From the NCBI RefSeq assembly GCF_003002055.1, contig NZ_PVZF01000003.1, positions 124,001 through 188,000 of the forward strand: a stretch of DNA of 64,000 nucleotides, given 5' to 3'. The position numbers and the translations under genes are program-made. This stretch comes from Kineococcus rhizosphaerae (GTDB taxonomy: Bacteria > Actinomycetota > Actinomycetes > Actinomycetales > Kineococcaceae). The notes below the pieces were generated by a model. It made no database searches. It worked only from the letters and a program-made list of their open reading frames with translations, and was not told the origin of the DNA. Positions 5,075 through 46,693 of the stretch are shown here, piece after piece. Numbering within the stretch: the stretch's first letter is position 1; each line of letters begins with the position of its first letter.

Positions 5075-8803
<3,729 letters not shown>

Positions 8804-28075: not shown

Positions 28076-28194
28076 GCGACGAGCGGCGCGTCGGCGCCTG
28101 GAACGAGGGAACGCGCCGACGGAGTCGCTGCGTGGTCCCGAGCGGAGGCGCCGACCCCGGCGCCGTGACGGAGCGAACCGAGGAGATGGCGTGA
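28072..28194 (+). repeat. Inter-cistronic element with 40-codon frame, copy A
   Basis: The spacer between the DJ-1/PfpI gene and the flavin-type oxidoreductase is a single open frame of 40 codons. Its GTG start overlaps the upstream TGA, and its TGA overlaps the downstream GTG, four bases each. The peptide starts V-S-D-E-R-R and has W10 and R16-R-S-R19. Copy B, at 62357-62476 on the minus strand, has V-S-E-Q-G-R, W10 and R16-R-S-R19 in the same positions with the same overlaps. The DNA also shares CCGACGGAGTCG and GAGCGAAC. It may be a mobile spacer carrying a ribosome site, or a real small protein. Confidence 0.5.
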
Positions 28195-32006: not shown

Positions 32007-33126
32007 GCGCCGAACCTACCCGGAACCGGTCCGGCACGGTGCCCGTGCCCAGCGCCGCGTCGGCGGCGAGCTCCCCGAGCAGGGGCGCGAACTTGGCGCC
32101 GTGCCCCGAGCAGGGGGACACGACGGTGACGCCGTCGACGCCGTCGACGACGAAGTCCTCGGTCGGGGTGTTCGTGAACAGGCACGTCGTCTCGGCGTAC
32201 GGCTCGGGCTCCAGACCGGGCAGGTAGGTCTTGACGTACTCCACGACGCGGGCCCGGTTGGCCGGGTCGACCACCCCGGACCGGGCCGCCGCCGAGGGGA
32301 TCGCCCGGCCGGCGTCGTACTCGGCGACCTTCTGACCGCGGAACTGCGCGTCGCGCCCACCGGGCAGGGAGTAGACGCTGATGTCGGCGCGCTTGTGGAT
32401 GAGCGTGGGCCAGTCCGCGCCGGGGTCGCGGTGGGGGAAGTGGAAGGCGTTCTCCTCGCGCACCTGCAACGGCGGGAACGCGCGCAGGAAGGCGTCCGGC
32501 AGCGAGAGGTTCCCGAGCAGCGCCGGCAGGAAGCCGCCCGCGCTCACGACGACGCGCTCGGCCCTGACGGTCCGCCCGTCGGCGCTGTGCGCGGTGAACC
32601 CGTGGCCGTCGCGCTCGAGCCGGTCCAGCGGCCAGCCCGTGAGGACCTCCGCACCGTTCGCCTCGGCCGCCGCGACCATGGTGTTCACGGTGGACTCGGC
32701 GTCCAGGACCCCGCCGGCGGCGTGGAACAGGACGTCGGTGTCGGCGAGGACGTGCGGCCAGCGCTCGCGGGCCTCGGCCTGCGGGACGAGTTCGTGGTCG
32801 ACGCCCGCCTCGGTGAGGACGGCGGCGAGGCCGTGCGGGTCGCGGGTCGCCCCGAAGTCCAGCGCGCCGCAGCGGGTGATGAGGTCGGAACCGTGCAGCC
32901 GCGACAGTTCCTCCCACCCCGGGACGGACGCCTTCACGAGGTCGACGTACTGCCGGCGCGGGTAGGGGAACCGGAAGATGCGGGCCGACCCGTGCGAACT
33001 GCCGTGCTCCGACGCCGGGACGTCGCGCTCGACGAGGGTGACCGAGAAACCCCGCGCGGCCAGCCGCCAGGCCGCCGAGGCGCCCGCCAGGCCGGCGCCG
33101 ACGACGAGGAACTGCGTGGAACTCAT
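31999..33126 (-). CDS. Monomeric sarcosine oxidase / N-methyl amino acid oxidase-type flavoprotein
   Basis: This 375-residue protein has an N-terminal FAD motif (V-V-G-A-G-L-A-G-A-S-A-A) and the S-S-H-G-S-A-R-I-F-R-F-P-Y segment typical of the MSOX/MTOX family. It carries Cys315 in E-T-T-C-L-F-T-N-T-P-T-E-D-F, the same residue number as the cysteine that carries covalent FAD in Bacillus monomeric sarcosine oxidase. It should oxidise an N-methyl amino acid to the free amine, formaldehyde and H2O2. ATG 33126 overlaps the HutD/Ves stop (ATGA). Its place behind N-methylglutamate-synthase-like genes suggests N-methylglutamate or sarcosine as substrate. Confidence 0.9.
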   Translation of the reverse strand: MSSTQFLVVGAGLAGASAAWRLAARGFSVTLVERDVPASEHGSSHGSARIFRFPYPRRQYVDLVKASVPGWEELSRLHGSDLITRCGALDFGATRDPHGLAAVLTEAGVDHELVPQAEARERWPHVLADTDVLFHAAGGVLDAESTVNTMVAAAEANGAEVLTGWPLDRLERDGHGFTAHSADGRTVRAERVVVSAGGFLPALLGNLSLPDAFLRAFPPLQVREENAFHFPHRDPGADWPTLIHKRADISVYSLPGGRDAQFRGQKVAEYDAGRAIPSAAARSGVVDPANRARVVEYVKTYLPGLEPEPYAETTCLFTNTPTEDFVVDGVDGVTVVSPCSGHGAKFAPLLGELAADAALGTGTVPDRFRVGSARV

Positions 33127-33570: not shown

Positions 33571-34896
33571 TCAGAGTGCCTGACCGGGGATCCAGCTGGT
33601 CCCCGCGAGGGGCAGCTTGGCCATGGCGGCGGCCTCGATCGACAGCGCCACGAGGTCCTCGGGTTCGAGGTGCTGCAGGTGCGCCTTGCCGCAGGCGCGG
33701 GCGATGATCTGCGCTTCCATCGTCATGACCCGCAGGAAGTTCGCGAGCTTGCGGCCGCCGACCTCGGGGTCGAAGTTCTTCTGCAGCTCGGGGTCCTGGG
33801 TGGTGATGCCGGCCGGGTCCCGCCCCGCCTGCCAGTCGTCGTAGAACCCCGCGGCCGACCCGATCTCGCGGTACTGCGCGTCCAGCGCCGGGTCGTTGTC
33901 GCCGAGGGCGATGAGCGCGGCGGTGCCGATCGCGACGGCGTCGGCGCCCAGGGCCATGCACTTGGCGAGGTCGGCACCGTTGCGGATGCCGCCGGAGACG
34001 ACGAGCTGGACCTCGCGGTGCACGCCCATCTCCTGCAGGGCACGGACGGCCTCGGGGATCGCGGCGAGCGTCGGGATGCCCACGTGCTCGATGAAGACGT
34101 CCTGCGTGGCGGCCGTCCCGCCCTGCATCCCGTCGACCACCACGACGTCCGCACCGGCCTTCACGGCGAGCTTGACGTCGTAGTAGGGGCGCGAGGCACC
34201 GACCTTGACGTAGATCGGCTTCTCCCAGTCGGTGATCTCCCGGATCTCGCCGATCTTGATGGCGAGGTCGTCCGGGCCGGTCCAGTCGGGGTGGCGGCAC
34301 GCCGAGCGCTGGTCGACGCCCACGGGCAGGGTGCGCATGCCCGCGACGCGTTCGGTGATCTTCTGGCCGAGCAGCATGCCGCCGCCGCCGGGTTTGGCGC
34401 CCTGGCCGAGCACGATCTCGATGGCGTCGGCCGCGCGCAGGTGGTCGGGGTTCATGCCGTAGCGCGAGGGCAGGTACTGGTAGACGAGGTGCTTGGAGTG
34501 CCCGCGCTCCTCGTCGGTCATGCCGCCGTCGCCCGTGGTGGTCGAGGTGCCGACCTCGCTGGCCCCGCGCCCGAGGGCCTCCTTGGCCCGGCCCGACAGC
34601 GCCCCGAAGCTCATGCCCGCGATGGTCACCGGCGTCGACAGGTGCAGCGGGAACCTCGCGTTCCTCGCCCCCAGCACCACGTCGGTGTCGCAGCGTTCGC
34701 GGTACCCCTCCAGGGGGTAGCGGGACATGCTGGCGCCGAGGAACACCAGGTCGTCGAAGTGCGGGAGCTTGCGCTTGGCACCGCCGCCGCGGATGTCGTA
34801 GATGCCGGTGCGGGCGGCGTGCTGGATGGCGGCGATCGTGGTCCGGTCGAACGTCGCGGATTCGCGCAGCCCCCGGGAGGCGAACTCGTCGGTCAT
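33571..34896 (-). CDS. Glutamate synthase-like FMN subunit (N-methylglutamate synthase large subunit, MgsC/GlxD type)
   Basis: This 441-residue protein corresponds to the FMN TIM-barrel of glutamate synthase alone. It has M-S-F-G-A-L-S (about 100), the T-G-D-G-G-M and K-P-G-G-G-G-M-L-L-G-Q-K-I phosphate and FMN loops, V-D-G-M-Q-G-G-T-A-A-T and G-G-I-R-N-G-A-D-L-A-K. The end has A-C-G-K-A-H-L-Q-H-L-E-P-E-D-L, as in MgsC/GlxD proteins. The start ATG 34896 has GAGGGT upstream. With the GXGXG and GATase genes it forms the three-gene synthase that makes N-methylglutamate from glutamine-type donors and an amine. True glutamate synthase is unlikely because GltB is normally one fused chain. Confidence 0.9.
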   Translation of the reverse strand: MTDEFASRGLRESATFDRTTIAAIQHAARTGIYDIRGGGAKRKLPHFDDLVFLGASMSRYPLEGYRERCDTDVVLGARNARFPLHLSTPVTIAGMSFGALSGRAKEALGRGASEVGTSTTTGDGGMTDEERGHSKHLVYQYLPSRYGMNPDHLRAADAIEIVLGQGAKPGGGGMLLGQKITERVAGMRTLPVGVDQRSACRHPDWTGPDDLAIKIGEIREITDWEKPIYVKVGASRPYYDVKLAVKAGADVVVVDGMQGGTAATQDVFIEHVGIPTLAAIPEAVRALQEMGVHREVQLVVSGGIRNGADLAKCMALGADAVAIGTAALIALGDNDPALDAQYREIGSAAGFYDDWQAGRDPAGITTQDPELQKNFDPEVGGRKLANFLRVMTMEAQIIARACGKAHLQHLEPEDLVALSIEAAAMAKLPLAGTSWIPGQAL

Positions 34897-34907
34897 GGGA
34901 ACCCTCC

Positions 34908-35624
34908 TCAGTACGCCGAGGCGTTGTCGACGTGGAAGTTGTAGAGCGTGCGGGCCGAGCCGTAGCGGGTGAACGCGGCGGGGTCGTCGTCGCGGCCGGC
35001 GGCCTCGAGCAGCCGGGTGAGCTCGTCGAGGTGCTCGGGGCGCATCTCCTTGGCGACGCAGTCCGCGCCCAGGGACTTCACGGTGCCCTTGACGTAGATG
35101 CGCGCCTCGTAGATCGAGTCGCCGAGGGCGTCCCCGGCGTCGCCGCAGACGACCAGGCGGCCGGCCTGGGCCATGAACCCGCTCATGTGGCCGACGTTCC
35201 CGCCGACGACGATGTCCACGCCCTTCATCGAGATCCCGCAGCGCGCAGCGGCGTTGCCGTCGACGACGAGCAGCCCGCCGTGCGCCGTGGCGCCGGCGGC
35301 CTGGGAGGCGTCGCCGTGGACGAGGACCGTGCCGGACATCATGTTCTCGGCGACGCCGACCCCGGCGTTGCCGTCGATCTCGACCGTCGCGAGCTGGTTC
35401 ATGCCCGCGGCGTAGTACCCGACGTGACCGTCGATCGTGACGGTCACGGGGCGGTTCAGGCCGACCGCGAGGGAGTGCTTGCCCTCGGGGTGCACGACCC
35501 GGTAGCCCGCGGTGGAACCCTCGGGTTCGGCGTGCAGGGCGGCGTTCAGGTCCCGGACGGAGGAGGCCGAGAGGTCGACCTCGGTGACGGTCTCCTGCAC
35601 GACGTCTTCGGTCAGCGTTCCCAT
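34908..35624 (-). CDS. GXGXG-motif subunit of glutamate synthase-like enzyme (MgsB/GlxC type)
   Basis: This 238-residue beta-helix protein has repeated G-N-A-G/G-D-A-S/G-N-V-G turns (for example V-E-I-D-G-N-A-G-V-G-V, L-V-V-D-G-N-A-A and I-V-V-G-G-N-V-G-H-M-S-G). This matches the C-terminal structural domain of glutamate synthase alpha chains as a separate gene. The start ATG 35624 lies 13 bases inside the end of the GATase gene, so the genes are translationally coupled. It completes the split synthase with the genes on both sides. Confidence 0.9.
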   Translation of the reverse strand: MGTLTEDVVQETVTEVDLSASSVRDLNAALHAEPEGSTAGYRVVHPEGKHSLAVGLNRPVTVTIDGHVGYYAAGMNQLATVEIDGNAGVGVAENMMSGTVLVHGDASQAAGATAHGGLLVVDGNAAARCGISMKGVDIVVGGNVGHMSGFMAQAGRLVVCGDAGDALGDSIYEARIYVKGTVKSLGADCVAKEMRPEHLDELTRLLEAAGRDDDPAAFTRYGSARTLYNFHVDNASAY

Positions 35625-36508
35625 GCGTACACCACTTCCGGCTCGGGTTCGAAGATGCGGGCGTTCTCGACACCGGGCAGGCCGGTGAGGTAGCGGTACT
35701 CGCTGGCCATCGCGACCCACTGGTCGGTCTCGGCGACGACGGCGGGTTTGCAGGCGATGGCGTCGCGGACGACGGCGAAGGAGTTCTCGGTCGCGACCAG
35801 CAGGGTGTAGAAACCGTCGAACCGCTCGCAGAGCAGCCGCAGCGCCTTCTCGACGTCGGCGCCCTCGGCGAGCTGCTTGGCGACGAACCGCGCCCCCACC
35901 TCGGTGTCGTTCTGCGAGTCGAACTCGATGCCCTCGGCCATCAGCTCGCGGCGGATCGTCGCGTGGTTGGCGAAGGACCCGTTGTGGACCATGCACTGGT
36001 CGGGGCCGACCGAGTAGGGGTGGCTGCCGGTGGAGGTGACGGCGGACTCCGTCGCCATGCGGGTGTGGGCGACGCCCTGGTAGCCGCCGGCGTCGGCCAG
36101 CCGGAACGTCGTGGCGAGGTCGTCGGGGTGGCCCGTGCCCTTGAGGACGGCGAGGTTCTCCCCCCGGCTGGTGACGACGGCTCCCGGCAGCGCCGTGCGG
36201 ACGGCGGTCTCGAGCAGCGCGGGGTCCACGGCCGCGGTGAACACCGTGGTCTGGCCGCTGGCCCGGCCCTGGACCGGCTGTCCCAGTGCGCGTTCGACGC
36301 CCGCGACCGCCTCAGCGGCGGCGAGCGGGGACTCGATGACGCAGACCGTGGCCCGGCCGGCGGGGTTCAGCGACGGGTCCCCGTAGAGGCCGACCCCGGC
36401 GGCGTCGGTCCCGCGTTCGGCGGCCTGGCAGAGCATCGTCTGCAGCAGGGAACCGAGCTGCGGCTGCAGCGCCGCGTCCCGCAGGTGAAGACCGGCGATC
36501 CCGCACAT
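35612..36508 (-). CDS. Class II glutamine amidotransferase subunit (MgsA/GlxB type)
   Basis: This 298-residue Ntn-type amidotransferase has the catalytic Cys2 in M-C-G-I-A-G-L-H, G-V-A-H-T-R-M-A-T near 150, H-N-G-S-F-A-N-H near 180 and N-D-T-E-V near 210, all conserved glutaminase residues. It should release ammonia or amine from glutamine or gamma-glutamylmethylamide for the FMN subunit. The start ATG 36508 has AAGGAGG upstream. An 86-base gap separates it from glnT and contains two AAGAAAC copies, so an additional promoter is possible here. Confidence 0.92.
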   Translation of the reverse strand: MCGIAGLHLRDAALQPQLGSLLQTMLCQAAERGTDAAGVGLYGDPSLNPAGRATVCVIESPLAAAEAVAGVERALGQPVQGRASGQTTVFTAAVDPALLETAVRTALPGAVVTSRGENLAVLKGTGHPDDLATTFRLADAGGYQGVAHTRMATESAVTSTGSHPYSVGPDQCMVHNGSFANHATIRRELMAEGIEFDSQNDTEVGARFVAKQLAEGADVEKALRLLCERFDGFYTLLVATENSFAVVRDAIACKPAVVAETDQWVAMASEYRYLTGLPGVENARIFEPEPEVVYAWER

Positions 36509-36594
36509 CAGCGTCCTCCTTCGTTCTGGTGTTTCTTCACAGTAGTCTGCGTTTCTTGGTGGTGTCCAGTCGTCCCGCCCTGGCTGCGCAGCCG

Positions 36595-37986
36595 CTACAC
36601 CGACGTGAGGTAGCGGTCGACCTCCCAGTCGGAGACCCGGGAGTGCCAGGCGTAGAACTCCTCGCGCTTCAGCTCGGCGTAGTAGCGCGAGACCCCCGCA
36701 CCCGGGTCGACGGCGTCGAGGACCCCCGTCACGACCTCGTCGGACTCCAGCGCGTGCACGGCGTCCAGCAGGGTGCGCGGCAGCAGCGGGGCGTCCTGGC
36801 GCCGCGCCCCCGGAGCGCCGGGGTCGAGGTCGCGCCGGATGCCGTCCAGGCCGGACCCCAGGGCGACCGCCGCGGCCAGGTGCGAGCTCGCCGCGCCGTC
36901 ACCGGCCCGCAGTTCCACCCGGTTCGCGTCCGGGACCCGGACCAGGTGGGTCCGGTCGTTGCCCCCGTAGGTGGCCGCCCGCGGCGCCCAGGTCGCCCCC
37001 GACGCGGTCGAGGTCGCCCCGGTCCGCTTGTACGAGTTCACGGTGGGGGCGATCACGGCCTGCATGGCCGGCGCGTGCTCCAGCAGACCGGCGATGAAGC
37101 CGTAGGCCGTGCGGGACAGGCCCAGCCCGTGCTCGTCGACCAGCGCCGGGAACCGCGCACCCTCCGCACCCCACAGCGACAGGTGCAGGTGCATGCCGCT
37201 GCCGGTGCGGTCGGTGAAGGGTTTCGGCATGTAGGTGGCGATCATGCCGCGCTGCTCGGCGAGCATCTGGATGACGTAGCGCAGGGTCGTGACCCGGTCG
37301 GACGTCGTGAGCGCGTCGGCGTAGTGGAAGTTCTGCTCGAACTGCCCGTTGCCGTCCTCGTGGTCGCTCGCGTACGGCCCCCACCCGAGTTCGTCCATGG
37401 CGTCCGAGACCGCGGCGAGGTGGTCGTACATCCGCGTCACGCCGCGGGTGTCGTAGCAGGGCTGGTCGGCGTCGTCGTGGGCGTCGGCCGTCACGAGCCT
37501 GCCGTCGGGGCCGCGCCGGACGAGGAAGTACTCGACCTCCGCGCCGACGGACAGGGTCATGCCCAGGTCGGCGGCCGCGGCGAGCTGGCGGCGCAGCAGG
37601 ACCCGCGGGGCGAAGGCGTACGGGACGCCGTTCACGTGCGGGTCGCAGTGGACCATGGCCAGACCGGGACGCACGAAGGGCAGCGGCGCGTAGGAGCTCT
37701 TGTCCGGGACGGCCACGACGTCCGGGTCGGCGGGGACCTGGCCGAGCCCGCCGGCGGCGTACCCGGCGAACCCGCACCCCTCGGCCTCGAGCTCGTCGGC
37801 CGCCGAGACGGGGACGAGCTTGGAGCAGGGTTTGCCGGTGAGCGTGGTGAAGGTCGCGAGCAGGTACTTCACGCCGTCGGCGCGGGCGAGGCTGGCCAGG
37901 GACTGGGTGCTGTCCGGCGCCGGCGGCGGGGTGGTGGTCGCGACGGGGGCGGTCTCGATCGGGGGGGTCTCGACTGGGGCGGTCAC
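36595..37986 (-). CDS. glnT: Type III glutamine synthetase / gamma-glutamylmethylamide synthetase (GlnT/GmaS)
   Basis: This 463-residue glutamine-synthetase-fold enzyme of the GlnT/GMAS group has E-V-E-Y-F-L near 135, D-H-E-D-G-N-G-Q-F-E-Q-N near 205 and G-S-G-M-H-L-H-L-S near 260, the metal and ATP residues of the family. N-R-V-E-L-R near 350 is also present. It lacks the adenylylation tyrosine region of GlnA. It joins glutamate with ammonia or a small amine such as methylamine. The start GTG 37986 follows GGAGG by six bases; the frame extends to a TTG at 37998. Three synthase genes follow, the gene order of the N-methylglutamate pathway, and a GlnR-like box lies upstream. Confidence 0.9.
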   Translation of the reverse strand: MTAPVETPPIETAPVATTTPPPAPDSTQSLASLARADGVKYLLATFTTLTGKPCSKLVPVSAADELEAEGCGFAGYAAGGLGQVPADPDVVAVPDKSSYAPLPFVRPGLAMVHCDPHVNGVPYAFAPRVLLRRQLAAAADLGMTLSVGAEVEYFLVRRGPDGRLVTADAHDDADQPCYDTRGVTRMYDHLAAVSDAMDELGWGPYASDHEDGNGQFEQNFHYADALTTSDRVTTLRYVIQMLAEQRGMIATYMPKPFTDRTGSGMHLHLSLWGAEGARFPALVDEHGLGLSRTAYGFIAGLLEHAPAMQAVIAPTVNSYKRTGATSTASGATWAPRAATYGGNDRTHLVRVPDANRVELRAGDGAASSHLAAAVALGSGLDGIRRDLDPGAPGARRQDAPLLPRTLLDAVHALESDEVVTGVLDAVDPGAGVSRYYAELKREEFYAWHSRVSDWEVDRYLTSV

Positions 37987-38145: not shown

Positions 38146-38481
38146 TCAGTCGAGCGCGGTGTCCTGCCGGGCGGACACCGACACGTGGGTCATGGCCGCG
38201 TCCGGGGCGGCGGCGTGCCGGTGGACGGCCCCGGGCGGGACGACGCGGACGGCGCCGGCAGCGAGCTCGTGCAGCGCTCCGTCCCGGAACTCCAGGACAC
38301 CGCGTCCCTCGCCGACCACGAGCACCTGGGGGTGGTCGTGGTGGTGCCAGGCCGTCCCGGCCCCGGCGGCGAACGTCGTGAGCACGACCGTGACGGGCTG
38401 CCCGACGACTGCCGCGAGGTCGGCCCAGGCGACGTCACCGGAGAACAGCGGCGCCCCCAGGGGCTGGAACTCCAGCGGCAC
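38146..38481 (-). CDS. Single-domain cupin protein
   Basis: This 111-residue cupin has metal-ligand motifs W-H-H-H-D-H-P-Q near 45-52 and P-P-G-A-V-H-R-H near 82-89. Such small cupins act as isomerases, dioxygenases or ligand sensors. Its GTG start follows immediately after the TGA of the permease gene with no gap, so the two are translated together, which links the cupin to the compound imported by the permease. No more specific function can be read. Confidence 0.85.
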   Translation of the reverse strand: MPLEFQPLGAPLFSGDVAWADLAAVVGQPVTVVLTTFAAGAGTAWHHHDHPQVLVVGEGRGVLEFRDGALHELAAGAVRVVPPGAVHRHAAAPDAAMTHVSVSARQDTALD

Positions 38482-39954
38482 TCAGGCCTCGCTCGCCGAG
38501 GGCACCGGGGAGGCGGCTTCCGCGGCCCGGTCCCCGCGGACGGGCCCGCTGCGGTGCCACAGCGGCGGGAGCCGGTGCAGCAGCAGCCACGCCGCCCCGC
38601 CGACCAGGAACCCGACGACGTAGGACAGGTCACCCCACTGCGGGTGCGCCGCCGCGACCGGCCCGACGTAGAAGGACAGGTTCCAGAAGGGCGCCGAGGC
38701 GGCGGCCCCCAGCAGCCAGGCCACGAAACCCCACTCCAGGACGCGACGCTCGTCGTACAGCTCCCCGATGCGGTTGCGGTCGCGGCGCCCACCCACGGTG
38801 TAGTCGAGCAGCAGGATCGCGCCGAACGGGGCGATGAGGTAGGCGCCGACGAAGAGGAAGTTCTTGAACTTCGCCTCGAACCCCGCGTCGGCCCACAGGC
38901 TCACGGCGTAGGCCAGCGCGCAGATCGCGATGACGGCGGTCTTGCGGCTGACGGGGATGCGCAGCGTCTGGATCGAGATGGCCCCGCCGTAGACGTTGAG
39001 GAAGTTCTGCGAGAAGGACGAGAGCAGGACCACCAGCAGCGCCGGGGTGGCGAACGGGCCGGTGATGCGGGTCAGCGCGCCGATGGCGTCCTCCCCGGAG
39101 ACCGCCGAACTGCCCAGCAGGGCTCCCGCGATGCCCAGCCAGCTGAGGGTGATGAAGTTCCCGGCCCACGTCCAGCCCCCCGTGGCGCGACTCGTCCGCT
39201 CGTCGTCCGGCAGGTACCGGGAGTAGTCCGACGCGAACGGCCACCAGGCGATGAGGAAGCTGAGGAAGTACCCGGCGAAGGTGATCCACCCCCCGGTCGG
39301 GCCCGACCAGTACGGCGCGGCCGGGTTCTGCCCGAAACCGCCGTGCACACCGCGCACGACCGAGACGACGGTGATCATCGCGAACCCGACGAACAGCACC
39401 ACGGCGAGGATCCGCTGGAGGAAGTGGATCATGTTGTAGCCGTAGACGGCGACGACCAGTTGCAGCGCCACGAGGGCCCCGGACGCGAGCCAGTACGGCA
39501 CGAACGGCACCAGGTGGTGCAGGGCCTGCCCGCCCAGGATGATCGTGACGGCCGCCCAGCCGATCCCGGCGAAGACGTTGATGTAGGCGACCGGGACGAA
39601 GTTGCCGAAGAACCCGAGCGGACCACGGGCCTGGATCTGCTGCGGGACGCCGAGCTTGGCCCCCATCCGGGCCAGGACGCCCATGACGACCGACCCCAGG
39701 AACGAGCCGACGAGGATCGCGGTCACCGACGACGTCAGCGAGAGCCCGAAGCTCACGGCCGAGAACCCGAGGACCATGATCGGGAAGTTCATGCCGGCGG
39801 CGAACCAGATGGAGAACTGCGACGAGGCCCTGCCGTGGCGTTCGGCGTCGGGGATGTGGTCGACGCCGTACGGCTCGACGACCGCGACGCGGTCGCGGTA
39901 CCCCCGGTCCTGGGGGTGGGCGGGGCCGGTGGAACCTGCGGGCTGGTCGTTCAC
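38482..39954 (-). CDS. NCS1-family nucleobase/allantoin/hydantoin-type permease
   Basis: This 490-residue carrier has about 12 hydrophobic helices, the family segment W-F-A-A-G-M-N-F-P in helix 1, I-Q-A-R-G-P-L-G-F-F-G near 95, and W-W-P-F-A-S-D-Y-S-R-Y-L-P in the middle. NCS1 carriers import purines, pyrimidines, hydantoins, allantoin or vitamins such as thiamine and B6. The start GTG 39954 has AGGAGG upstream; a longer reading to 40068 would include the promoter. The promoter at 40072-40100 (minus strand) contains the GntR-type site described at 40075. It is divergent from the GntR regulator and presumably imports the substrate of the flavin-monooxygenase cluster. Confidence 0.9.
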   Translation of the reverse strand: MNDQPAGSTGPAHPQDRGYRDRVAVVEPYGVDHIPDAERHGRASSQFSIWFAAGMNFPIMVLGFSAVSFGLSLTSSVTAILVGSFLGSVVMGVLARMGAKLGVPQQIQARGPLGFFGNFVPVAYINVFAGIGWAAVTIILGGQALHHLVPFVPYWLASGALVALQLVVAVYGYNMIHFLQRILAVVLFVGFAMITVVSVVRGVHGGFGQNPAAPYWSGPTGGWITFAGYFLSFLIAWWPFASDYSRYLPDDERTSRATGGWTWAGNFITLSWLGIAGALLGSSAVSGEDAIGALTRITGPFATPALLVVLLSSFSQNFLNVYGGAISIQTLRIPVSRKTAVIAICALAYAVSLWADAGFEAKFKNFLFVGAYLIAPFGAILLLDYTVGGRRDRNRIGELYDERRVLEWGFVAWLLGAAASAPFWNLSFYVGPVAAAHPQWGDLSYVVGFLVGGAAWLLLHRLPPLWHRSGPVRGDRAAEAASPVPSASEA

Positions 39955-40071
39955 GAGGTGTGTCCCTCCTGCTCGGCGCGGGGCGACGGGTGGGGCGGCC
40001 CTCGACCGCGAGGGGCGCAGCGGTGCGGGGATCGAGGTGCCGGGGCGAGGTGCGCTCACCGGTGACACAGG

Positions 40072-40100
40072 ACGGTGGCATGCAACACCGACGGAGTCAA
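40072..40100 (-). promoter_or_regulatory. Permease promoter TTGACT-N17-CACCGT with embedded operator
   Basis: On the minus strand TTGACT (40100-40095) and CACCGT (40077-40072) are 17 bases apart. The spacer and -10 contain TTGCATGCCA, one of four related sites in this locus. It would start a transcript about 110 bases upstream of GTG 39954. Confidence 0.55.
40075..40086. promoter_or_regulatory. GntR-type site 1 (GTGGCATGCAAC)
   Basis: This site contains TGGCATGCAA, shared with sites at 40221, 41533 and 41696, and lies within the permease promoter. It places the permease in the same apparent regulon as the catabolic genes. Confidence 0.6.
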
Positions 40101-40188
40101 GGCCCTCAGGTCACCGCGAGCTGCGGGCCCGGGAACTGCCGGTTCCTCCGCTCTTCTCCTGCAGCAGGCGCACACGGGCCCGGAACGG

Positions 40189-40224
40189 TTGACGAGAGCG
40201 ACAGGTCCTCCTACCGTCTCTTGC
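40189..40224 (+). promoter_or_regulatory. Leaderless promoter of the GntR gene
   Basis: TTGACG (40189-40194) and TACCGT (40212-40217) are 17 bases apart, and seven bases separate the -10 from the ATG at 40225, so transcription should begin at the start codon. The regulator site at 40221-40230 contains this ATG. Confidence 0.6.
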
Positions 40225-40233
40225 ATGCCACAG
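40221..40233. promoter_or_regulatory. GntR-type site 2, containing the GntR start codon
   Basis: TTGCATGCCACAG reads as an inverted copy of site 4 (CTGTGGCATGCAAG). The ATG of the GntR gene is the central ATG of the palindrome, so binding would block transcription start, a compact autorepression design. Confidence 0.6.
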
Positions 40234-40887
40234 CCGATGGAGGCCGCGGCGCTCACCGGAGCGCAGGCGCGAGTCCTGGACGCCCTGCGGACCGCGATCA
40301 TCAGCGGTGACCACCAGCCCGGGTCACCGTTGTCCGAGATCGCCCTCGCCGAGCAGCACGGCGTCAGCCGCACCCCGGTCCGGGAGGCGCTCAAGCAGCT
40401 GCAGATCGAGGGCCTCATCGAGGTCCGGCCCCGCGTGGGCACCTTCGTGCGCGCCCCCAGCCGGCGCGAGGTCATCGAGCTCTTCGAGCTCAAGGAGGTC
40501 CTGGAGGGCATGGGGGCGCGCCTGCTGGCCGCCCGCGGCCGGGTGCCCGCCCTCGACGAGCTCGAGGAGAACATCGAGCGCTCGCGCCTGGCCGTGGCCG
40601 CCGACGACCACGACGGGTACGCCGACCTCGTGCACGCGTTCCACTCCACGATCATCGACGGGGCGGACAACACCCAGCTGAAGAACCACTACCGCACCCT
40701 CATGAACCAGCTCGCCTACCACCGGCTGGTCGCCCGCTCCCTCAACCGCCCGGGCCGCCTCGGCGCCTCCCTGGGGGAGCACGAACGCGTCCTGACCCGG
40801 ATCCGGGACAAGGACGGCTTCGGGGCCGAGTTCGCGATGCGCGACCACGTGCGCTCCAGCGAACGGGAGACCCTCTCCGCGGACTGA
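40225..40887 (+). CDS. GntR-family regulator (FCD subfamily) of the permease and monooxygenase cluster
   Basis: This 220-residue regulator has the GntR HTH with G-V-S-R-T-P-V-R-E-A-L-K-Q-L (about 45-58) and an FCD domain with candidate metal ligands D-L-V-H-A-F-H (about 136-142) and D-H-V-R-S-S near the C-terminus. The start ATG 40225 is set by promoter geometry and lies inside its putative operator. Four copies of a TGGCATGCCA-like site, at the permease promoter, at this gene, after the flavin reductase gene and at the first DUF1185 gene, suggest it controls all of them. The ligand is probably the pathway substrate or an acid derived from it. Confidence 0.93.
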   Translation: MPQPMEAAALTGAQARVLDALRTAIISGDHQPGSPLSEIALAEQHGVSRTPVREALKQLQIEGLIEVRPRVGTFVRAPSRREVIELFELKEVLEGMGARLLAARGRVPALDELEENIERSRLAVAADDHDGYADLVHAFHSTIIDGADNTQLKNHYRTLMNQLAYHRLVARSLNRPGRLGASLGEHERVLTRIRDKDGFGAEFAMRDHVRSSERETLSAD

Positions 40888-40984
40888 CCCGCGCCCGCAC
40901 CACCGGGTCCGCGCACCCACCCACGGCGACGGCGCCACGACACCGGGGCCGTCGACACCCGAGAACCGACCCCCAGGAGCTTCC

Positions 40985-41518
40985 GTGACCGAGCCGCTCA
41001 CCCTGCAGGCCTTCGAGGACGACCCCGCCGCCCTGCGCACCACCTTCGCCCTGTACCCCTTGGGCGTCGCCGCGATCTGCGCCGAGGTCCCCGGCGCCGA
41101 CGGGCCGGAACCGGTCGTCCTGGTCGCCTCCTCCTTCCAGGTGGGGATCTCCCTGGACCCGCCACTGGTCCTGTTCGCCGTCCAGCACACCTCCACGAGC
41201 TGGCCGCGACTGAGGGCGGCCGCCGACGCCGGGCTGCGGCTGGGGGTCTCCGTCCTCGGCGAGGCGCACGACCTGACGGCGCGCCAGCTCGCCTCCCGGG
41301 CCGCCGACCGCTTCGCCGGGATCGAGACGACCACCACCGGAGCGGGGGCGAAGTTCGTGCACGGCGCCCCGGTCTGGCTGGAGTGCTCGGTGCACTCGCA
41401 GTTCCCCGCCGGCGACCACGACGTCGTGCTCCTGCAGGTGCACGCCCTGGCCGCCGCTCCCGACGCCGAACCCCTCGTCTGGCACTCGTCCGGGTTCCGC
41501 ACCCTGACGCCGCGCTGA
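40985..41518 (+). CDS. Flavin reductase family protein (monooxygenase small component)
   Basis: This 177-residue protein is a flavin-reductase-like FMN-binding split barrel. It has A-S-S-F-Q-V-G-I-S-L-D-P-P-L-V-L-F near 50 and H-G-A-P-V-W-L-E-C near 122. It should supply reduced FMN to the luciferase-like monooxygenase at 45.2 kb. The start GTG 40985 has AGGAG six bases upstream. It follows the GntR gene by 97 bases and is ended by a strong terminator at 41566, so it is probably transcribed with the regulator and separately from the rest of the cluster. Confidence 0.92.
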   Translation: MTEPLTLQAFEDDPAALRTTFALYPLGVAAICAEVPGADGPEPVVLVASSFQVGISLDPPLVLFAVQHTSTSWPRLRAAADAGLRLGVSVLGEAHDLTARQLASRAADRFAGIETTTTGAGAKFVHGAPVWLECSVHSQFPAGDHDVVLLQVHALAAAPDAEPLVWHSSGFRTLTPR

Positions 41519-41532
41519 TCCCAACGTTCCTT

Positions 41533-41546
41533 TGTGGCATGCCACA
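41533..41546. promoter_or_regulatory. GntR-type site 3, perfect TGTGGCATGCCACA
   Basis: This 14-base perfect palindrome lies 15 bases past the flavin reductase stop. It is the most symmetric of the four sites and defines the consensus. As it is not in a clear promoter, it may be an auxiliary site for cooperative binding with the site at 41696. Confidence 0.65.
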
Positions 41547-41565
41547 GAGTCGGTTCATCGTGTCC

Positions 41566-41604
41566 CGAGAACCCCGCCGTCCGACCCGGACGGCGGGGTT
41601 CTCG
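41566..41604 (+). terminator. Strong hairpin terminator after the flavin reductase gene
   Basis: A perfect 18-base stem (41566-41583 and 41587-41604) with a three-base loop is followed by GTGCGTC rather than a T-run. Its strength and its position between two promoters make it a likely transcription end. Confidence 0.7.
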
Positions 41605-41665
41605 TGCGTCAAGCCCTGCATCGCAGAGTTTTTCGCATCAGATCGAGAAGCATCCCGCCAATTCC

Positions 41666-41701
41666 TTGACCGGACGTGGAGCAACACCTAGCGTCTGTGG
41701 C
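41666..41701 (+). promoter_or_regulatory. Leaderless promoter of the DUF1185 operon
   Basis: TTGACC (41666-41671) and TAGCGT (41689-41694) are 17 bases apart, and ATG 41702 follows seven bases after the -10, so the transcript should begin at the start codon. The design is the same as at the GntR gene. Confidence 0.6.
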
Positions 41702-41708
41702 ATGCAAG
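41696..41708. promoter_or_regulatory. GntR-type site 4, containing the first DUF1185 start codon
   Basis: TGTGGCATGCAAG shares ten central bases with the site at 40075 and has the gene's ATG at its centre. It links the catabolic operon to the GntR protein. Confidence 0.6.
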
Positions 41709-42388
41709 AGGTCGCACGCACTACCGCGGTGGACACGCTCCCCCGGCCGACCACGCCCTCGCTGCGGGCCACCGCGGACGACCGCGCCCCCGCCGGCGTC
41801 GAGGTCCGCAAGCTCGTCGTCTACCGCGAGACGGTGCTCTCCGAGGCCGGCGCGGCCCCCGCGGTCCCCGCCGAACGGGCCTCCGCGGCCGCCGTCATCG
41901 CGAACCCCTGGGTGGGCACCCCGGCCACCACGGACCTCGACGAGACGGTCGCCGCCATCGCCCCGTCCCTGGCGAAGCTGCTGACCGACGCCCTCGTCGA
42001 CGCCCTCGGCGGCGTCGGGAACGTCGAGGCGTTCGGCAAGGCCGCCGTCGTCGGCACCGCCGGGGAGATCGAGCACGGCGCCGCGCTCATCCACACGCCC
42101 TACTTCGGCAACCTCGTCCGCGCCTTCCTCGAGGGCGAGTCGATCATCTGCTTCGCCGACACCCGCGGCGAGGCCGGCGAGACCCTCGTCGTGCCGCTGT
42201 GGCACAAGACCCGGGCCTCGACGCGCAGCCACTACCAGACGGTCACGACGCGGGTCGCGGACGCACCCCGCCCCGACGAGATCGTCGTCGTGGCCGCCGC
42301 CTCCACCGGACCGCGCCCGCACGCCCGCATCGGCGACCGCACCACCGACCCGAACGTCACCCCCGCGATCCTGGAGGACAAGGCATGA
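41702..42388 (+). CDS. DUF1185 (PF06684) family protein, long paralogue
   Basis: This 228-residue protein has an N-terminal extension of about 30 residues, then V-E-V-R-K-L-V-V-Y-R-E-T-V, the A-A-V-I-A-N-P-W-V-G-T segment near 60 and G-K-A-A-V-V-G-T-A-G-E-I-E-H-G-A-A-L-I-H-T-P near 115-137. These match DUF1185, a family with a chorismate-mutase-like fold and no proven reaction (the Pfam name amino-acid synthesis is tentative). It lacks membrane segments. It is the first gene of a five- or six-gene run and is coupled by ATGA to a second paralogue, so a hetero-oligomer is plausible. Confidence 0.9.
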   Translation: MQEVARTTAVDTLPRPTTPSLRATADDRAPAGVEVRKLVVYRETVLSEAGAAPAVPAERASAAAVIANPWVGTPATTDLDETVAAIAPSLAKLLTDALVDALGGVGNVEAFGKAAVVGTAGEIEHGAALIHTPYFGNLVRAFLEGESIICFADTRGEAGETLVVPLWHKTRASTRSHYQTVTTRVADAPRPDEIVVVAAASTGPRPHARIGDRTTDPNVTPAILEDKA

Positions 42389-42936
42389 ACGTGCGCAAGC
42401 TCGTCACCGTGGTGGAGGAGACCCGCCTGGAGGGCGGCCGCGAGGTCGACCCCGTCGCGCGCGTCGCCGTCGTCGCCGCCGTCATCGAGAACCCCTGGGC
42501 CGGTGCGGGGTTCGTCGAGGACCTCGCCCCCGGCATCGAGGCGAACGCCTCCGAGCTGGGTGCCCTGCTCGCCCCCCGCGTGCTGGAGGCGCTCGGCGGC
42601 ACCGCCGAGGCCTACGGCAAGGCGGGCATCGTCGGGCTCGACGGGGAGGTCGAGCACGCCTCGGCCCTCATCCACACGCTGAAGTTCGGCGACCACTTCC
42701 GCAAGGCCGCCCAGGCCACGACGCTGCTGCCCGCCGTCGAGAAGCGGGGCCGGGCCGGGACCACGTTCGACATCCCCCTCAAGCACGTCACCGACGCCAC
42801 GATCCGCTCGCACCACCAGAGCGTCGAGGTGCAGGTCCCCGACGCCCCGCACGCGGGCGAGATCGTCGTCGCCCTCGCCGCCGCGACCCGCGGCCGGCCC
42901 CAGCAGCGCCTGGCCCCCCTGTCCTCCGAGCAGTGA
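42385..42936 (+). CDS. DUF1185 (PF06684) family protein, short paralogue
   Basis: This 183-residue paralogue starts directly with M-N-V-R-K-L-V-T-V-V-E-E-T and keeps V-I-E-N-P-W-A-G-A-G-F, Y-G-K-A-G-I-V-G-L-D-G-E-V-E-H-A-S-A-L-I-H-T-L and R-S-H-H-Q-S-V. Both paralogues keep the G-x-x-G-E-x-E-H-x-x-A-L-I-H-T pattern, a likely active-site or interface region. ATG 42385 overlaps the first paralogue's stop (ATGA). It is followed 10 bases later by the hydrolase. Confidence 0.9.
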   Translation: MNVRKLVTVVEETRLEGGREVDPVARVAVVAAVIENPWAGAGFVEDLAPGIEANASELGALLAPRVLEALGGTAEAYGKAGIVGLDGEVEHASALIHTLKFGDHFRKAAQATTLLPAVEKRGRAGTTFDIPLKHVTDATIRSHHQSVEVQVPDAPHAGEIVVALAAATRGRPQQRLAPLSSEQ

Positions 42937-42946
42937 GCCGGCACCG

Positions 42947-43684
42947 GTGACCAGCCACGACAGCGTCGTCCTCCTGCACGGGGTGGGCCTGGACCGCACC
43001 ATGTGGCAGCCGGCGGCGGACCTCCTGCGCCGCGACGGGTTCGAGGTCCTCACCCCCGACCTGCCCGGCCACGGGGCGAACCCGCCGGTCGCCGAGGGGA
43101 CGAGCCTCGCCGACCTGGCCGGGCAGGTCGCCCCGCTGGTCCCCGCCGGCTCCCACGTCGTCGGGTTCTCGCTCGGGGCGTTGATCGCCCAGCACCTCGC
43201 CCGGTTCCGGCCCGACCTGGTGGCGACGCTCACCTCGGTGAGCTCGGTCTGCCGGCGCACCCCGGCCGAGCGCGCCGCGGTCCTGGACCGGCTGGCCACG
43301 GCCGGGCGGGACTTCCCCGCCGGCGTGGCCGCGTCGCTGCAGCGCTGGTACCCGGCCGACGACGACGTCGACCCCGACCTGGTGCGCCGCACGGAGAAGA
43401 CCCTGCTCGCCAACGACACCGCGTCCTACCTGCGCTGCTACCGGGTCTTCGCCACCGCCGACGCCGAGATCGGTCCCGAGCTGGACCGCATCACCGTCCC
43501 CGCCCTCGCCGTGACCGGCGACCTCGACCCCGGGTCGACACCGGAGATGACCCGCCGCCTCGCGCGGGCGATCCCGGGGTGCGTGGCGCACGTGGTCCCC
43601 GGCGCCCGGCACATGTGGCCGGCGCAGCGACCGCAGGACCTGACCACCCGCCTCACGACCTTCTGGGAGGAGATCGACGCATGA
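42947..43684 (+). CDS. Alpha/beta-fold hydrolase
   Basis: This 245-residue hydrolase has an H-G-V-G-L-D oxyanion segment at 11-16 and nucleophile Ser75 in G-F-S-L-G. The acid is probably in T-G-D-L-D-P-G-S (about 192) and the histidine in G-A-R-H-M (about 223). It resembles 3-oxoadipate enol-lactonase-like and RutD-like hydrolases, so it may open a lactone, ester or carbamate produced by the monooxygenase. The start GTG 42947 follows the second DUF1185 gene by 10 bases, and its stop overlaps the dehydrogenase start (ATGA). Confidence 0.9.
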   Translation: MTSHDSVVLLHGVGLDRTMWQPAADLLRRDGFEVLTPDLPGHGANPPVAEGTSLADLAGQVAPLVPAGSHVVGFSLGALIAQHLARFRPDLVATLTSVSSVCRRTPAERAAVLDRLATAGRDFPAGVAASLQRWYPADDDVDPDLVRRTEKTLLANDTASYLRCYRVFATADAEIGPELDRITVPALAVTGDLDPGSTPEMTRRLARAIPGCVAHVVPGARHMWPAQRPQDLTTRLTTFWEEIDA

Positions 43685-45168
43685 GCGACGTGCAGCAGCT
43701 CGACCACCACATCGGCGGCACGACGAGCGCCCCCGCCGGCGGGGACTACCTCGAGAGCACCAACCCGGCCACGCTCGCGGTGAACTACCAGGTGGCGCGC
43801 GGGACCGCCCCCGACGTGGACGCCGCCGTCCGCTCCGCCCGCGACGCCTTCGAGGACCCGCGCTGGCGCGACCTCAGCCAGACCAGGCGCGGTCACCTCC
43901 TGCGCCGCCTCGGCGACCTCGTCGCCGAGAACGCGGAGGAACTGGCCCGCATGGAGACCGCGGACAACGGCAAGCTCCTGCGCGAGATGCGCGGGCAGCT
44001 GACCACGCTGCCGGAGTACTTCCACTACTACGCGGGCCTGGCCGACAAGATCCAGGGCGACGTCATCCCCACGTCGGACCGGCGCGTCCTGAACTACACC
44101 CAGCGCGAACCGCTCGGCGTCGTCGGGGCCATCACCCCGTGGAACTCCCCGCTGACCCTGACGACCAGCAAGCTGGCCCCGGCCCTGTGCGCGGGGAACA
44201 CCGTCGTCGTCAAACCGTCCGAGCACACCTCGGCCACGATCCTGCGGCTGGCGCAGCTGGCCGTCGAGGCCGGGTTCCCGCCCGGCACCGTCAACGTCGT
44301 CACCGGCTACGGCGCCGAGGCCGGACAGGCTCTCGTCGACCACCCGGGCCTGGCGAAGATCTCCTTCACCGGCAGCACCGCGACCGGCGCCCGGATCGCG
44401 GCGGCCACCGCCTCCCGGTTCATCGGCTCGACGCTGGAACTGGGCGGCAAGTCCCCGAACATCGTCTTCGCGGACGCGGACGTCGCCAACGCCGCGATGG
44501 GGGTCGTCGCGGGGATCTTCGCCGCCGCCGGCCAGACCTGCATCGCCGGCAGCCGCGTCTTCGCCCACCGTTCCGTCTACGACGAGCTGCTCGAACGCGT
44601 CACCGACCGCGCCCGCACCATCCGCATCGGCGACCCGCTGGACGACGCCACCGAGCTGGGTCCCCTCGCCTTCGCCGACCAGCGCGTCAAGGTCGACGGC
44701 TACGTGCAGCTCGGGGTCTCCGAGGGTGCGCGCGTCCTGACGGGCGGCCGGCAGACCGACGGCGGCCTCGGCGGCTACTTCTACGAACCCACCGTCCTCG
44801 TCGACGTCGACAACTCGATGCGCGTCGTCCGCGAGGAGATCTTCGGGCCCGTCGCCGCCGTCATGCCGTTCGACACCGAGGACGAGGTCGTCGCCCTCGC
44901 CAACGACACCGAGTACGGGCTCGCGGCCGGGGTGTGGACCTCGGACCTGTCCCGCGCGCACCGGATGGCGAACCGGCTGGACGCCGGCACCGTCTGGGTC
45001 AACACCTACCGGGCGATGTCGCCCATGTCCCCCCGCCAGGGTTTCGGCAGCAGCGGCGTCGGGGTCGAGCACGGCCAAGAGACGATCCGCGAGTACACGC
45101 GCCTGAAGAGCGTGTGGATCAACACCAGCACCGAGCCGCTCGCCGACCCGTTCACCATGCGCAGCTGA
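43681..45168 (+). CDS. NAD(P)-dependent aldehyde dehydrogenase
   Basis: This 495-residue member of the ALDH superfamily has P-W-N-S-P near 155, F-T-G-S-T-A-T-G near 225 (cofactor loop), L-E-L-G-G-K-S-P-N near 250 (general-base Glu) and A-A-G-Q-T-C-I-A-G-S with the catalytic Cys near 285. It should oxidise an aldehyde released in the pathway to the acid. ATG 43681 is coupled to the hydrolase gene. A 44-base gap with a ribosome site leads to the monooxygenase. The physiological aldehyde is unknown. Confidence 0.95.
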   Translation: MSDVQQLDHHIGGTTSAPAGGDYLESTNPATLAVNYQVARGTAPDVDAAVRSARDAFEDPRWRDLSQTRRGHLLRRLGDLVAENAEELARMETADNGKLLREMRGQLTTLPEYFHYYAGLADKIQGDVIPTSDRRVLNYTQREPLGVVGAITPWNSPLTLTTSKLAPALCAGNTVVVKPSEHTSATILRLAQLAVEAGFPPGTVNVVTGYGAEAGQALVDHPGLAKISFTGSTATGARIAAATASRFIGSTLELGGKSPNIVFADADVANAAMGVVAGIFAAAGQTCIAGSRVFAHRSVYDELLERVTDRARTIRIGDPLDDATELGPLAFADQRVKVDGYVQLGVSEGARVLTGGRQTDGGLGGYFYEPTVLVDVDNSMRVVREEIFGPVAAVMPFDTEDEVVALANDTEYGLAAGVWTSDLSRAHRMANRLDAGTVWVNTYRAMSPMSPRQGFGSSGVGVEHGQETIREYTRLKSVWINTSTEPLADPFTMRS

Positions 45169-45212
45169 GCCGTTCAGCACCACAGTCATCGACGCGATGA
45201 GGAGTAGACGAC

Positions 45213-46268
45213 GTGAAGTTCTCGCTGTTCGTGCACATGGAACGCTGGGACGAGGAGGTCTCCCACCAGCAGCTCTTCGAGAACCTGACCGAGCTGGCGC
45301 TCATGGCCGAGGAAGGGGGTTTTAGCACCGTCTGGATCGGTGAGCACCACGCGATGGAGTACACCGTCTCCCCCAGCCCGATGCCGCAACTGGCCTACCT
45401 CGCCGCCCGCACGTCGCGGATCCGGCTGGGCGCGGGGACGATCATCGCCCCCTTCTGGAACCCGATCCGCGCCGCGGGCGAGTGCGCCCTGCTCGACGTC
45501 ATCAGCGGCGGCCGCATGGAGGTCGGGCTGGCCCGGGGGGCCTACCAGTTCGAGTTCGACCGGATGGCCGATGGCCTGTCGGCGCGCGACGGCGGCAAGC
45601 ACCTGCGCGAGCTCGTGCCCGCCGTCCGGAAGCTGTGGGAGGGCGACTACGCCCACGACGGGGAGATCTGGCAGTTCCCGACGTCGACCAGCGTGCCCTC
45701 CCCCGTCCAGAAGCCCGGCCCGCCGGTGTGGATCGCCGCCCGGGACCCCGACTCGCACGACTTCGCCGTCGCCTCCGGCTGCAACGTCATGGTGACCCCG
45801 CTCATGAAGGGGGACGAGGAGGTCGAGGACCTGGCCCGCAAGTTCGACACCGCCGTGGCGAACCACCCGGAGCGGGACCGTCCGCAGCTGATGGTGCTGC
45901 GGCACACCCACGTCCACCCCACCGACCGGCCCGACGCCTGGCGGCCCGCCGCCGAGGCCGTCGCCCGGTACTACCGCACCTTCGACGCGTGGTTCGGGAA
46001 CCGGACCACACCCGAGAAGGGTTTCCTCGCCCCGAGCCCGGAGGAGAAGTTCGCCGACCGTCCGGAGTTCGAGGTCGACTCGCTGCACAAGACCGCGATG
46101 ATCGGCACACCCGAGGAGGTCGTCGAGCGCATCCGGTACTACGAGCAGCTCGGCGTGGACGAGTTCAGCTTCTGGATCGACAACGGCATGTCGCACGAGG
46201 AGAAGCGGGACTCCCTGGCGCTGTTCATCGAGCAGGTCGTCCCGGCGTTCACGGGGGACGGGCGGTGA
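45213..46268 (+). CDS. Luciferase-like FMN-dependent monooxygenase
   Basis: This 351-residue TIM-barrel protein of the bacterial luciferase superfamily has V-W-I-G-E-H-H near 42, R-L-G-A-G-T-I-I-A-P-F-W-N-P near 72-85 and G-L-A-R-G-A-Y near 107. The E-H-H motif and the neighbouring flavin reductase and flavokinase favour FMN over F420. It is likely the key enzyme that attacks the pathway substrate, by ring opening or carbon-heteroatom cleavage. The start GTG 45213 has GAGGAG upstream, and its stop overlaps the flavokinase start. The substrate may be an N-heterocycle, judging by the NCS1 permease; that is inference. Confidence 0.92.
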   Translation: MKFSLFVHMERWDEEVSHQQLFENLTELALMAEEGGFSTVWIGEHHAMEYTVSPSPMPQLAYLAARTSRIRLGAGTIIAPFWNPIRAAGECALLDVISGGRMEVGLARGAYQFEFDRMADGLSARDGGKHLRELVPAVRKLWEGDYAHDGEIWQFPTSTSVPSPVQKPGPPVWIAARDPDSHDFAVASGCNVMVTPLMKGDEEVEDLARKFDTAVANHPERDRPQLMVLRHTHVHPTDRPDAWRPAAEAVARYYRTFDAWFGNRTTPEKGFLAPSPEEKFADRPEFEVDSLHKTAMIGTPEEVVERIRYYEQLGVDEFSFWIDNGMSHEEKRDSLALFIEQVVPAFTGDGR

Positions 46269-46693
46269 CGCCGCCGACCGGCGCCGCTGCCGCGCAGCGG
46301 ATCGAGGGCGTCGTGGAACACGGGGACGAGCGCGGCCGGCTGCTCGGTTTCCCGACCGCGAACCTCGGCGTCCACGGGCAGGACCTGCGCGACGGGGTCT
46401 GGGCCGGTCTCGTCGAGGTCGACCCGGGCACCGGGCGTGCGACGACCCACGTCGCCGCCGTCTCGGTCGGGCACCGGCCGACCTACTACGACCGCACCGG
46501 GGAACGCCTGCTCGAGGCGAACCTGCTCGACTTCAGCGGTGACCTGTACGGCCGCCGGGTGATCGTGCACCTGATCACCCGGTTGCGTCCGCAGCGCCGG
46601 TCCACCGGGTCGGAGGAACTCGTGACCCAGTTGCGCGCCGACGTCGCCGCCGTCCGGGAGTGGGCCGCGGGCGCGGGCCACTCCGGTTCCTGA
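46265..46693 (+). CDS. Stand-alone riboflavin kinase (flavokinase) domain
   Basis: This 142-residue protein corresponds to the riboflavin kinase half of RibF without the FAD synthetase half. It has G-F-P-T-A-N-L with P30-T31-A32-N33 and the late signature E84-A-N-L-L-D-F-S-G-D-L-Y-G containing the expected catalytic Glu. It should make FMN from riboflavin and ATP. GTG 46265 overlaps the monooxygenase stop (GTGA), which suggests dedicated FMN supply for that enzyme. Alternatively riboflavin or a relative is the pathway substrate, as in the riboflavin-degrading rca cluster of Microbacterium. Confidence 0.85.
   Translation: MTPPTGAAAAQRIEGVVEHGDERGRLLGFPTANLGVHGQDLRDGVWAGLVEVDPGTGRATTHVAAVSVGHRPTYYDRTGERLLEANLLDFSGDLYGRRVIVHLITRLRPQRRSTGSEELVTQLRADVAAVREWAAGAGHSGS

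Follow-up and report, generated by a model that had tools for sequence, protein, structure and literature searches.

Positions 38146-46693 of a 64,000-nucleotide stretch of the Kineococcus rhizosphaerae genome (contig NZ_PVZF01000003.1, positions 124,001 to 188,000; hereafter the window) hold ten genes, among them a luciferase-like (LLM-class) flavin mononucleotide (FMN)-dependent monooxygenase and two adjacent DUF1185 genes. All ten were confirmed with the expected families by Pfam, NCBIfam and coding-bias gene calls. They lie in two divergent blocks, 38146-40068 on the minus strand and 40225-46693 on the plus strand (Table 1). A first-pass annotation of the window, made from the letters and open reading frames, had named the same families and the same arrangement, and both hold; the catabolic logic it proposed (import, FMN-dependent attack, hydrolysis and aldehyde oxidation) is supported by family. 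It had also called the system undescribed. This did not stand, since the genes correspond to those of the trigonelline pathway, of which the LLM, flavin reductase, aldehyde dehydrogenase (ALDH), hydrolase and DUF1185 proteins are all parts. We therefore consider it likely that this is an actinobacterial tgn/trc-type cluster for the breakdown of trigonelline (N-methylnicotinate), a common plant compound. As an observation the cluster is real and conserved, but its pathway is most likely of a kind already described; our literature searches covered an open-access library, and we make no claim that the actinobacterial form is undescribed.

The permease start at 39954 was taken from the coding-bias gene call, the longest frame extending to 40068. 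For the DUF1185 genes the most likely starts are the ATG at 41702 (DUF1185-A) and position 42385 (DUF1185-B); the Pfam score of DUF1185-A in Table 1 was obtained on a protein two residues longer at its start.

Table 1. Features of the cluster and its flank (window coordinates; scores in bits)
Feature	Position	Strand	Evidence
M20 amidase	30795..32006	-	allantoate amidohydrolase model 600, cut-off 372
N-methyl amino acid oxidase-like, possible N-methylglutamate oxidase	31999..33126	-	NF008425 216, under cut-off 257
Three-gene N-methylglutamate-synthase-like set (MgsC, MgsB, MgsA, our reading)	33571..36508	-	Glu_synthase 300, GXGXG 42, GATase_6 60
Type III glutamine synthetase / gamma-glutamylmethylamide-synthetase-like	36595..37986	-	TIGR03105 583, cut-off 470
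Small cupin protein	38146..38481	-	PF07883; present in 2/65 relatives
NCS1-family permease, probable substrate importer	38482..39954	-	PF02133, 130
Operator-like site upstream of permease block	40076..40085	.	pattern match
Operator-like site over gntR start codon	40221..40230	.	pattern match
GntR/FCD-family regulator, probable cluster repressor	40225..40887	+	PF00392 + PF07729
Flavin reductase, TgnB role by position	40985..41518	+	PF01613
Operator-like site, palindromic	41535..41544	.	pattern match
18-bp perfect hairpin between reductase gene and DUF1185 genes	41566..41604	+	sequence
Operator-like site over DUF1185-A start codon	41698..41707	.	pattern match
DUF1185 protein A (TgnF family)	41702..42388	+	PF06684, 190
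DUF1185 protein B (TgnF family)	42385..42936	+	PF06684, 206
Alpha/beta hydrolase, TgnD role proposed	42947..43684	+	PF12697
ALDH, TgnC role proposed	43681..45168	+	PF00171, 581
LLM-class FMN monooxygenase, TgnA role proposed	45213..46268	+	PF00296
Stand-alone flavokinase, probable FMN supply	46265..46693	+	PF01687, 104

Homology to tgn/trc-type clusters and conservation of the neighbourhood

When the LLM protein of the Sinorhizobium meliloti plasmid pSymA was compared with the K. rhizosphaerae genome, the window LLM was the one strong match (50% identity, E 3e-120), and the next best reached 27% (E 2e-20). By comparison with the LLM proteins of the S. meliloti and Acinetobacter records, it is an oxygenase of the kind of TgnA, which we take to be the LLM protein of the tgn system. 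The ALDH is 47% identical to its S. meliloti counterpart, and 45-51% over S. meliloti, Acinetobacter, Azospirillum and Caballeronia, and belongs with these enzymes. The hydrolase agrees with the S. meliloti one at the family level (31%), and both DUF1185 proteins are related to that of S. meliloti (A 49%, B 48%), giving two copies in the window.

On pSymA of S. meliloti ml47, between nodL/noeAB and nifB/nifA, the genes read GntR-DUF1185-hydrolase-reductase-LLM-ALDH-NIPSNAP-ABC-SSADH (SSADH, succinate-semialdehyde dehydrogenase). As in the window, GntR, DUF1185, hydrolase, reductase, LLM and ALDH stand in one block, whereas the ABC transporter, the in-cluster SSADH and the single DUF1185 are unlike it. 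Gene order differs as well (DUF1185-hydrolase-reductase-LLM-ALDH versus DUF1185-DUF1185-hydrolase-ALDH-LLM). A S. meliloti strain that lacks pSymA fails to grow on trigonelline (PMC4207669). The Acinetobacter record, which carries no annotation, reads DUF1185-hydrolase-reductase-LLM-ALDH-NCS1-SSADH. We presume that the block on pSymA represents the trc locus and the one in Acinetobacter a tgn cluster.

Much the same block lies on plasmids of Rhizobium, Mesorhizobium, Leisingera, Gemmobacter and Caballeronia; in Mesorhizobium we read the hydrolase and the reductase as one long gene. The blocks of Caballeronia and Acidiphilium also include a cytosine-permease-type carrier, the latter cluster being interrupted by insertion sequences. 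Together with the Acinetobacter block, they show that an NCS1 carrier does occur in clusters of the tgn/trc kind. The tgn system of Acinetobacter baylyi ADP1, as reported in papers citing it, shares with the window cluster a two-component ring-opening oxygenase, an ALDH, a hydrolase and a DUF1185-related protein. In contrast to it, the window cluster has two DUF1185 genes, a short and weakly similar reductase, an added flavokinase and cupin, no SSADH in the cluster and an LLM of another clade than that of the Acinetobacter record.

To find relatives, one genome per species was scanned with the window LLM protein (tblastn, E <= 1e-3), which confirmed at least 581. The 80 best of these at least 581 loci, picked by similarity to the window LLM (77-84% identity), were scored for gene presence with phmmer at bit-score cut-offs between 40 and 200; given this choice, the counts describe the near group only. 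Their hosts are Streptomyces, Mycobacterium/Mycolicibacterium, Nocardioides, Arthrobacter, Geodermatophilus, Nocardia, Pseudomonas and others. Two DUF1185 genes are present in 65 of the 80 loci and one of the S. meliloti kind in five. The 65 tandem loci are accompanied almost throughout by ALDH (65), flavin reductase (65), hydrolase (64) and GntR (64). The cluster is thus conserved in other genomes, while the flavokinase is an optional extra seen in two of the 65. The carrier varies: BCCT in 37 loci, NCS1 in 30, both in three and neither in one, where BCCT identity rests on Pfam for two examples and on similarity to one of these two for the rest. Other variable genes are SnoaL-like (47), tautomerase (35), isochorismatase family (16), Arthrobacter-type SSADH (12), RibBA (8), NUDIX (8) and M20 amidase (6). 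The gene set is therefore spread over soil actinobacteria and Pseudomonas. Genes, families, the repeated site, homology and neighbourhood can all be read from the sequence itself.

In an evenly drawn sample of 197 genomes of the class (LLM at E <= 1e-80, best 10 candidates scored per genome), the system is rare. The LLM was found in three genomes, two adjacent PF06684 genes in three, and both in two, this genome included. PF06684 was absent from 14/14 control genomes and 10/10 genomes of the same genus, indicating that the cluster is patchy.

Further genes on the minus strand belong to the picture and were absent from the first-pass annotation: an N-methylglutamate-synthase-like (mgs) set and a glutamine synthetase (GS)-like gene at 33571-37986. 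Past them follow HutD, an oxidase-like gene for N-methyl amino acids and the M20 amidase. Such glutamate-synthase-like/GS sets convert methylamine to N-methylglutamate. They are what would be expected if the substrate releases methylamine, as trigonelline reportedly does. Genes of this type lie within ~10 kb of the LLM in 12/80 loci, although one of these (L036) includes no more than the end of the GS gene, and also in the trc-type locus of Azospirillum (L105). We estimate that an mgs operon, if every genome of 6-8 Mb had one, would fall within a given 20 kb by chance in ~0.3% of cases.

Proposed pathway and competing readings

Perchat and colleagues reportedly described in 2018 the steps of the trigonelline pathway of A. 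baylyi, with succinate semialdehyde, methylamine, formate and CO2 as products, and the cluster is said to be conserved in marine, soil and plant-associated bacteria. We infer the substrate and the reactions of the window cluster, and the roles of single genes and the order of the steps follow that pathway. The NCS1 carrier would import the pyridinium betaine, and the reductase and LLM oxygenase would open the ring between two carbons. The resulting aldehyde would be oxidised by the ALDH, and cleavage of the product by the hydrolase would yield succinate semialdehyde, methylamine, formate and CO2. A late step may be aided by the DUF1185 pair, and an SSADH encoded elsewhere would feed the tricarboxylic acid cycle. 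Methylamine would be handled by the adjoining mgs/GS-like genes, which ties the probable use of trigonelline to methylamine assimilation, and the flavokinase would top up FMN. A cluster formerly listed as unknown is in this way tied to a specific, easily tested substrate.

Several observations weigh against this assignment. A tree built from 90 LLM proteins has a fully supported branch (100/100) with the nine of trc/tgn type on one side and, on the other, 67 actinobacterial proteins, the window LLM included, and 14 of Pseudomonas type. The window clade is thus separate, with 47-58% identity across the split, and a shifted substrate is therefore possible. The hydrolase is 31-36% identical to those of S. 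meliloti, Acinetobacter, Azospirillum and Caballeronia, and the reductase is no close relative of the tgn/trc-type reductases of the same four (25-33% identity). The SSADH gene is missing from the window cluster; the best candidates elsewhere in the genome are 48-49% identical to the S. meliloti enzyme. Ten of the 80 LLM loci have no DUF1185 within their stretches, some of which are cut: one (L069) seems to end just before DUF1185, and the genome of another (L080) has DUF1185 42 kb away. In the class sample, one genome (L145) has a lone LLM and no PF06684 match, and one (L144) has the same partners with a different LLM. Finally, the authors of PMC7913881 could not demonstrate a TgnF-like effect for HcdD, a DUF1185-type protein of coumarin breakdown.

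With a shifted substrate, the same machinery would act on another N-methylated pyridine, namely homarine (N-methylpicolinate), 1-methylnicotinamide or N-methylpyridinium, with ring opening and methylamine release as for trigonelline. We regard this as rather improbable, even though the separate LLM clade, the alternation of carriers between clusters and the L144 variant would all suit it. The isochorismatase-family hydrolase near 16/65 clusters could turn an amide into the acid, and a cited paper reportedly links homarine to Mgd. Action of TgnA/B on homarine is argued to be unlikely on steric grounds in PMC8269262. The best argument for a shared substrate comes from Pseudomonas. The Pseudomonas-type LLMs (one labelled Paucimonas) form a single branch nested among the actinobacterial ones, and in each of six Pseudomonas genomes the S. 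meliloti LLM finds a single match at E <= 1e-40, a protein of the window clade. DUF1185 was found in 3/3 of the Pseudomonas genomes searched. Where loci were mapped, S. meliloti-like DUF1185, hydrolase and ALDH genes lie beside the LLM (L049, L064, L077), ~8 kb from it (L057, L065) or, in one genome, ~42 kb away. Since a window-clade LLM here goes with S. meliloti-like partners, both clades would share their substrate, an indirect argument; the simplest reading would be that one LLM replaced the other within the same pathway.

The first-pass annotation had suggested an N-heterocycle, and this probably stands. Pyrimidine, hydantoin and flavin are less likely than a pyridinium betaine, because BCCT carriers occur in 37 of 65 clusters and methylamine-type genes adjoin the window cluster. 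A pyrimidine, hydantoin or ureide pathway with Rut-like logic (FMN oxygenase, reductase, hydrolase and carrier) would account for the NCS1 carrier and for the distant RutD/RutF-like scores of the hydrolase and reductase, but those scores are far under the NCBIfam cut-offs (RutD 47 bits versus 238.5, RutF 37 versus 254.75). As the annotation had noted, rutA, rutB and rutC are not recognisable: RutA, RutB and RutC were not among the NCBIfam matches shown for the ten proteins (25 of 29 for the LLM and 25 of 43 for the ALDH, where a weak match could be hidden), and the system is not Rut. The strongest hint left for a ureide or hydantoin is the M20 amidase, as it passes not only the allantoate amidohydrolase cut-off but also that of a hydantoinase/carbamoylase subfamily model (264 versus 204 bits), and similar genes lie near 6/65 clusters. 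It adjoins the methylamine-type genes, however, and stands outside the ten. With homology and neighbourhood pointing to tgn/trc, we judge this pathway very improbable.

Equally improbable, in our view, is catabolism of riboflavin or lumichrome as in the rca system of Microbacterium with its riboflavin lyase RcaE, which is likewise reported to join an FMN-dependent monooxygenase with a flavokinase and a reductase. RcaE is described as an FMN-dependent riboflavin monooxygenase in PMC12746152, and flavokinase, reductase and LLM are present together in the window cluster. Unlike rca, the present kind of cluster has the conserved DUF1185, ALDH and hydrolase, a betaine-type carrier and methylamine-type genes, and BCCT carriers and methylamine-type genes do not fit flavin breakdown. 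The flavokinase is optional, relatives having been found in only 2/65 clusters and on an Arthrobacter plasmid, and short flavokinases also adjoin other LLM genes of this genome. Plain pyridine was also rejected, as it would release no methylamine and would need no betaine carrier.

Two loci are of interest beside these readings. At L144 (6575-11965), two DUF1185, hydrolase, ALDH, GntR, NCS1, reductase and mgs/GS genes stand with an LLM that scores 135 bits to the window LLM; perhaps this is a sister pathway for another N-methylated ring. At L009 (13589-15402), an isochorismatase-family hydrolase followed by RibBA lies beside an NCS1 carrier. This hydrolase family could provide trigonelline from its amide, or serve flavin supply.

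Distinctive features of the actinobacterial cluster

Relative to the trigonelline clusters discussed above, the window cluster is set apart by its tandem DUF1185 genes, its LLM clade, operator sites on two start codons, and flavokinases beside FMN monooxygenases. The two DUF1185 proteins are 42% identical to each other. Both match the solved structures 2qtp and 3byq (B to 2qtp, E 9e-42), and both keep the residues that are invariant over 37 aligned members, among others R4, K5, NPW 36-38, GK 78-79, E88, E90, H91, H97, R141, H143, R171 and R175 in B numbering. Neither copy looks decayed, as these residues are kept in both. We take 3byq to be BB2672, chain number minus one. In our reading of the alignment, the BB2672 interface residues Glu90, Glu92, His93, His98, His144, Arg172 and Arg176 are kept, and His174 is conserved in A but replaced by Gln in B.

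The first-pass annotation had stated that nothing was known of the reaction of DUF1185. A reaction is still not assigned, but a role for TgnF is in print. According to PMC7913881, HcdD is homologous to TgnF, and TgnF of A. baylyi stimulates TgnE-dependent oxidation of succinate semialdehyde. The statement on HcdD is the link by which we place the window proteins in the TgnF family. DUF1185, a family without an assigned reaction, thereby gains a pathway context that makes its role measurable. As a tentative idea, which we think unlikely, A and B could assemble into a mixed oligomer with an enzymatic activity of its own. The step it catalyses would come after the hydrolase and before the oxidation of succinate semialdehyde; imine/enamine hydrolysis, or the decarboxylation of an intermediate resembling formylsuccinate, would be examples. 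If true, the stimulation of TgnE by TgnF would merely reflect an actual enzyme activity, and PF06684 would gain its first reaction.

DUF1185 seems to serve other pathways too, as single genes were found in quite different surroundings at L147 (8878-9486) and L148 (8920-9507), with no match to the panel LLM within these 18-kb stretches. In PMC2954203, the DUF1185 protein SPO0826 of Ruegeria pomeroyi (there Silicibacter pomeroyi) is reported near ABC transporter genes.

The operator-like repeat of the first-pass annotation was recovered as TKGCATGCMA, with four sites in the window versus 0.02 expected from shuffles. The whole 5.6-Mb genome has six places, four of them within 40076-41707; the pattern read backwards, our control, has three. 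As two of the sites overlap start codons, those of gntR and DUF1185-A, a bound repressor would block a transcript starting at or near the ATG, and the GntR protein may thus repress both its own gene and the DUF1185 operon by binding where they begin. A test with one fixed pattern, in which an in-frame ATG was sought no further than 330 bases into the longest frame, placed such an ATG within a KGCATGCM site near the DUF1185-A or gntR start in 36/65 relatives. The promoter scan under a strict rule gave no promoter-like match; by eye, a TTGAC(G/C)-17-TA(C/G)CGT pair is seen ahead of both gntR and DUF1185-A. The terminator scan gave one site versus 1.8 in shuffles.

The window flavokinase had been called private, which does not hold, as it is one of seven PF01687 places in the genome. 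One of these, in a long frame, is presumably RibF, and four of the six short flavokinases stand beside LLM and/or flavin reductase genes: the window one (46265) and those at C15:57079, C14:159771 and C1:573141 (L118, L121, L119). A role of the window gene in FMN supply fits this pattern. A count over 11 genomes of the genus gave 26 flavokinase matches. Eleven, one per genome, are higher-scoring and RibF-like, and six of the other 15 have an LLM or reductase match within 1.5 kb on either side, one of these weak (L134). These counts point to short flavokinases as an accessory that recurs with LLM monooxygenases in the genus and supplies FMN.

Elsewhere in the window, a second LLM-family protein is encoded at 28191-29192, away from the cluster. 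In addition, genes for glycine-betaine-type catabolism, judged by family, lie ~30 kb from the cluster at 316-8463: a Rieske oxygenase and its reductase, a BCCT transporter, an FAD/GcvT demethylase-like protein and the formyltetrahydrofolate deformylase PurU.

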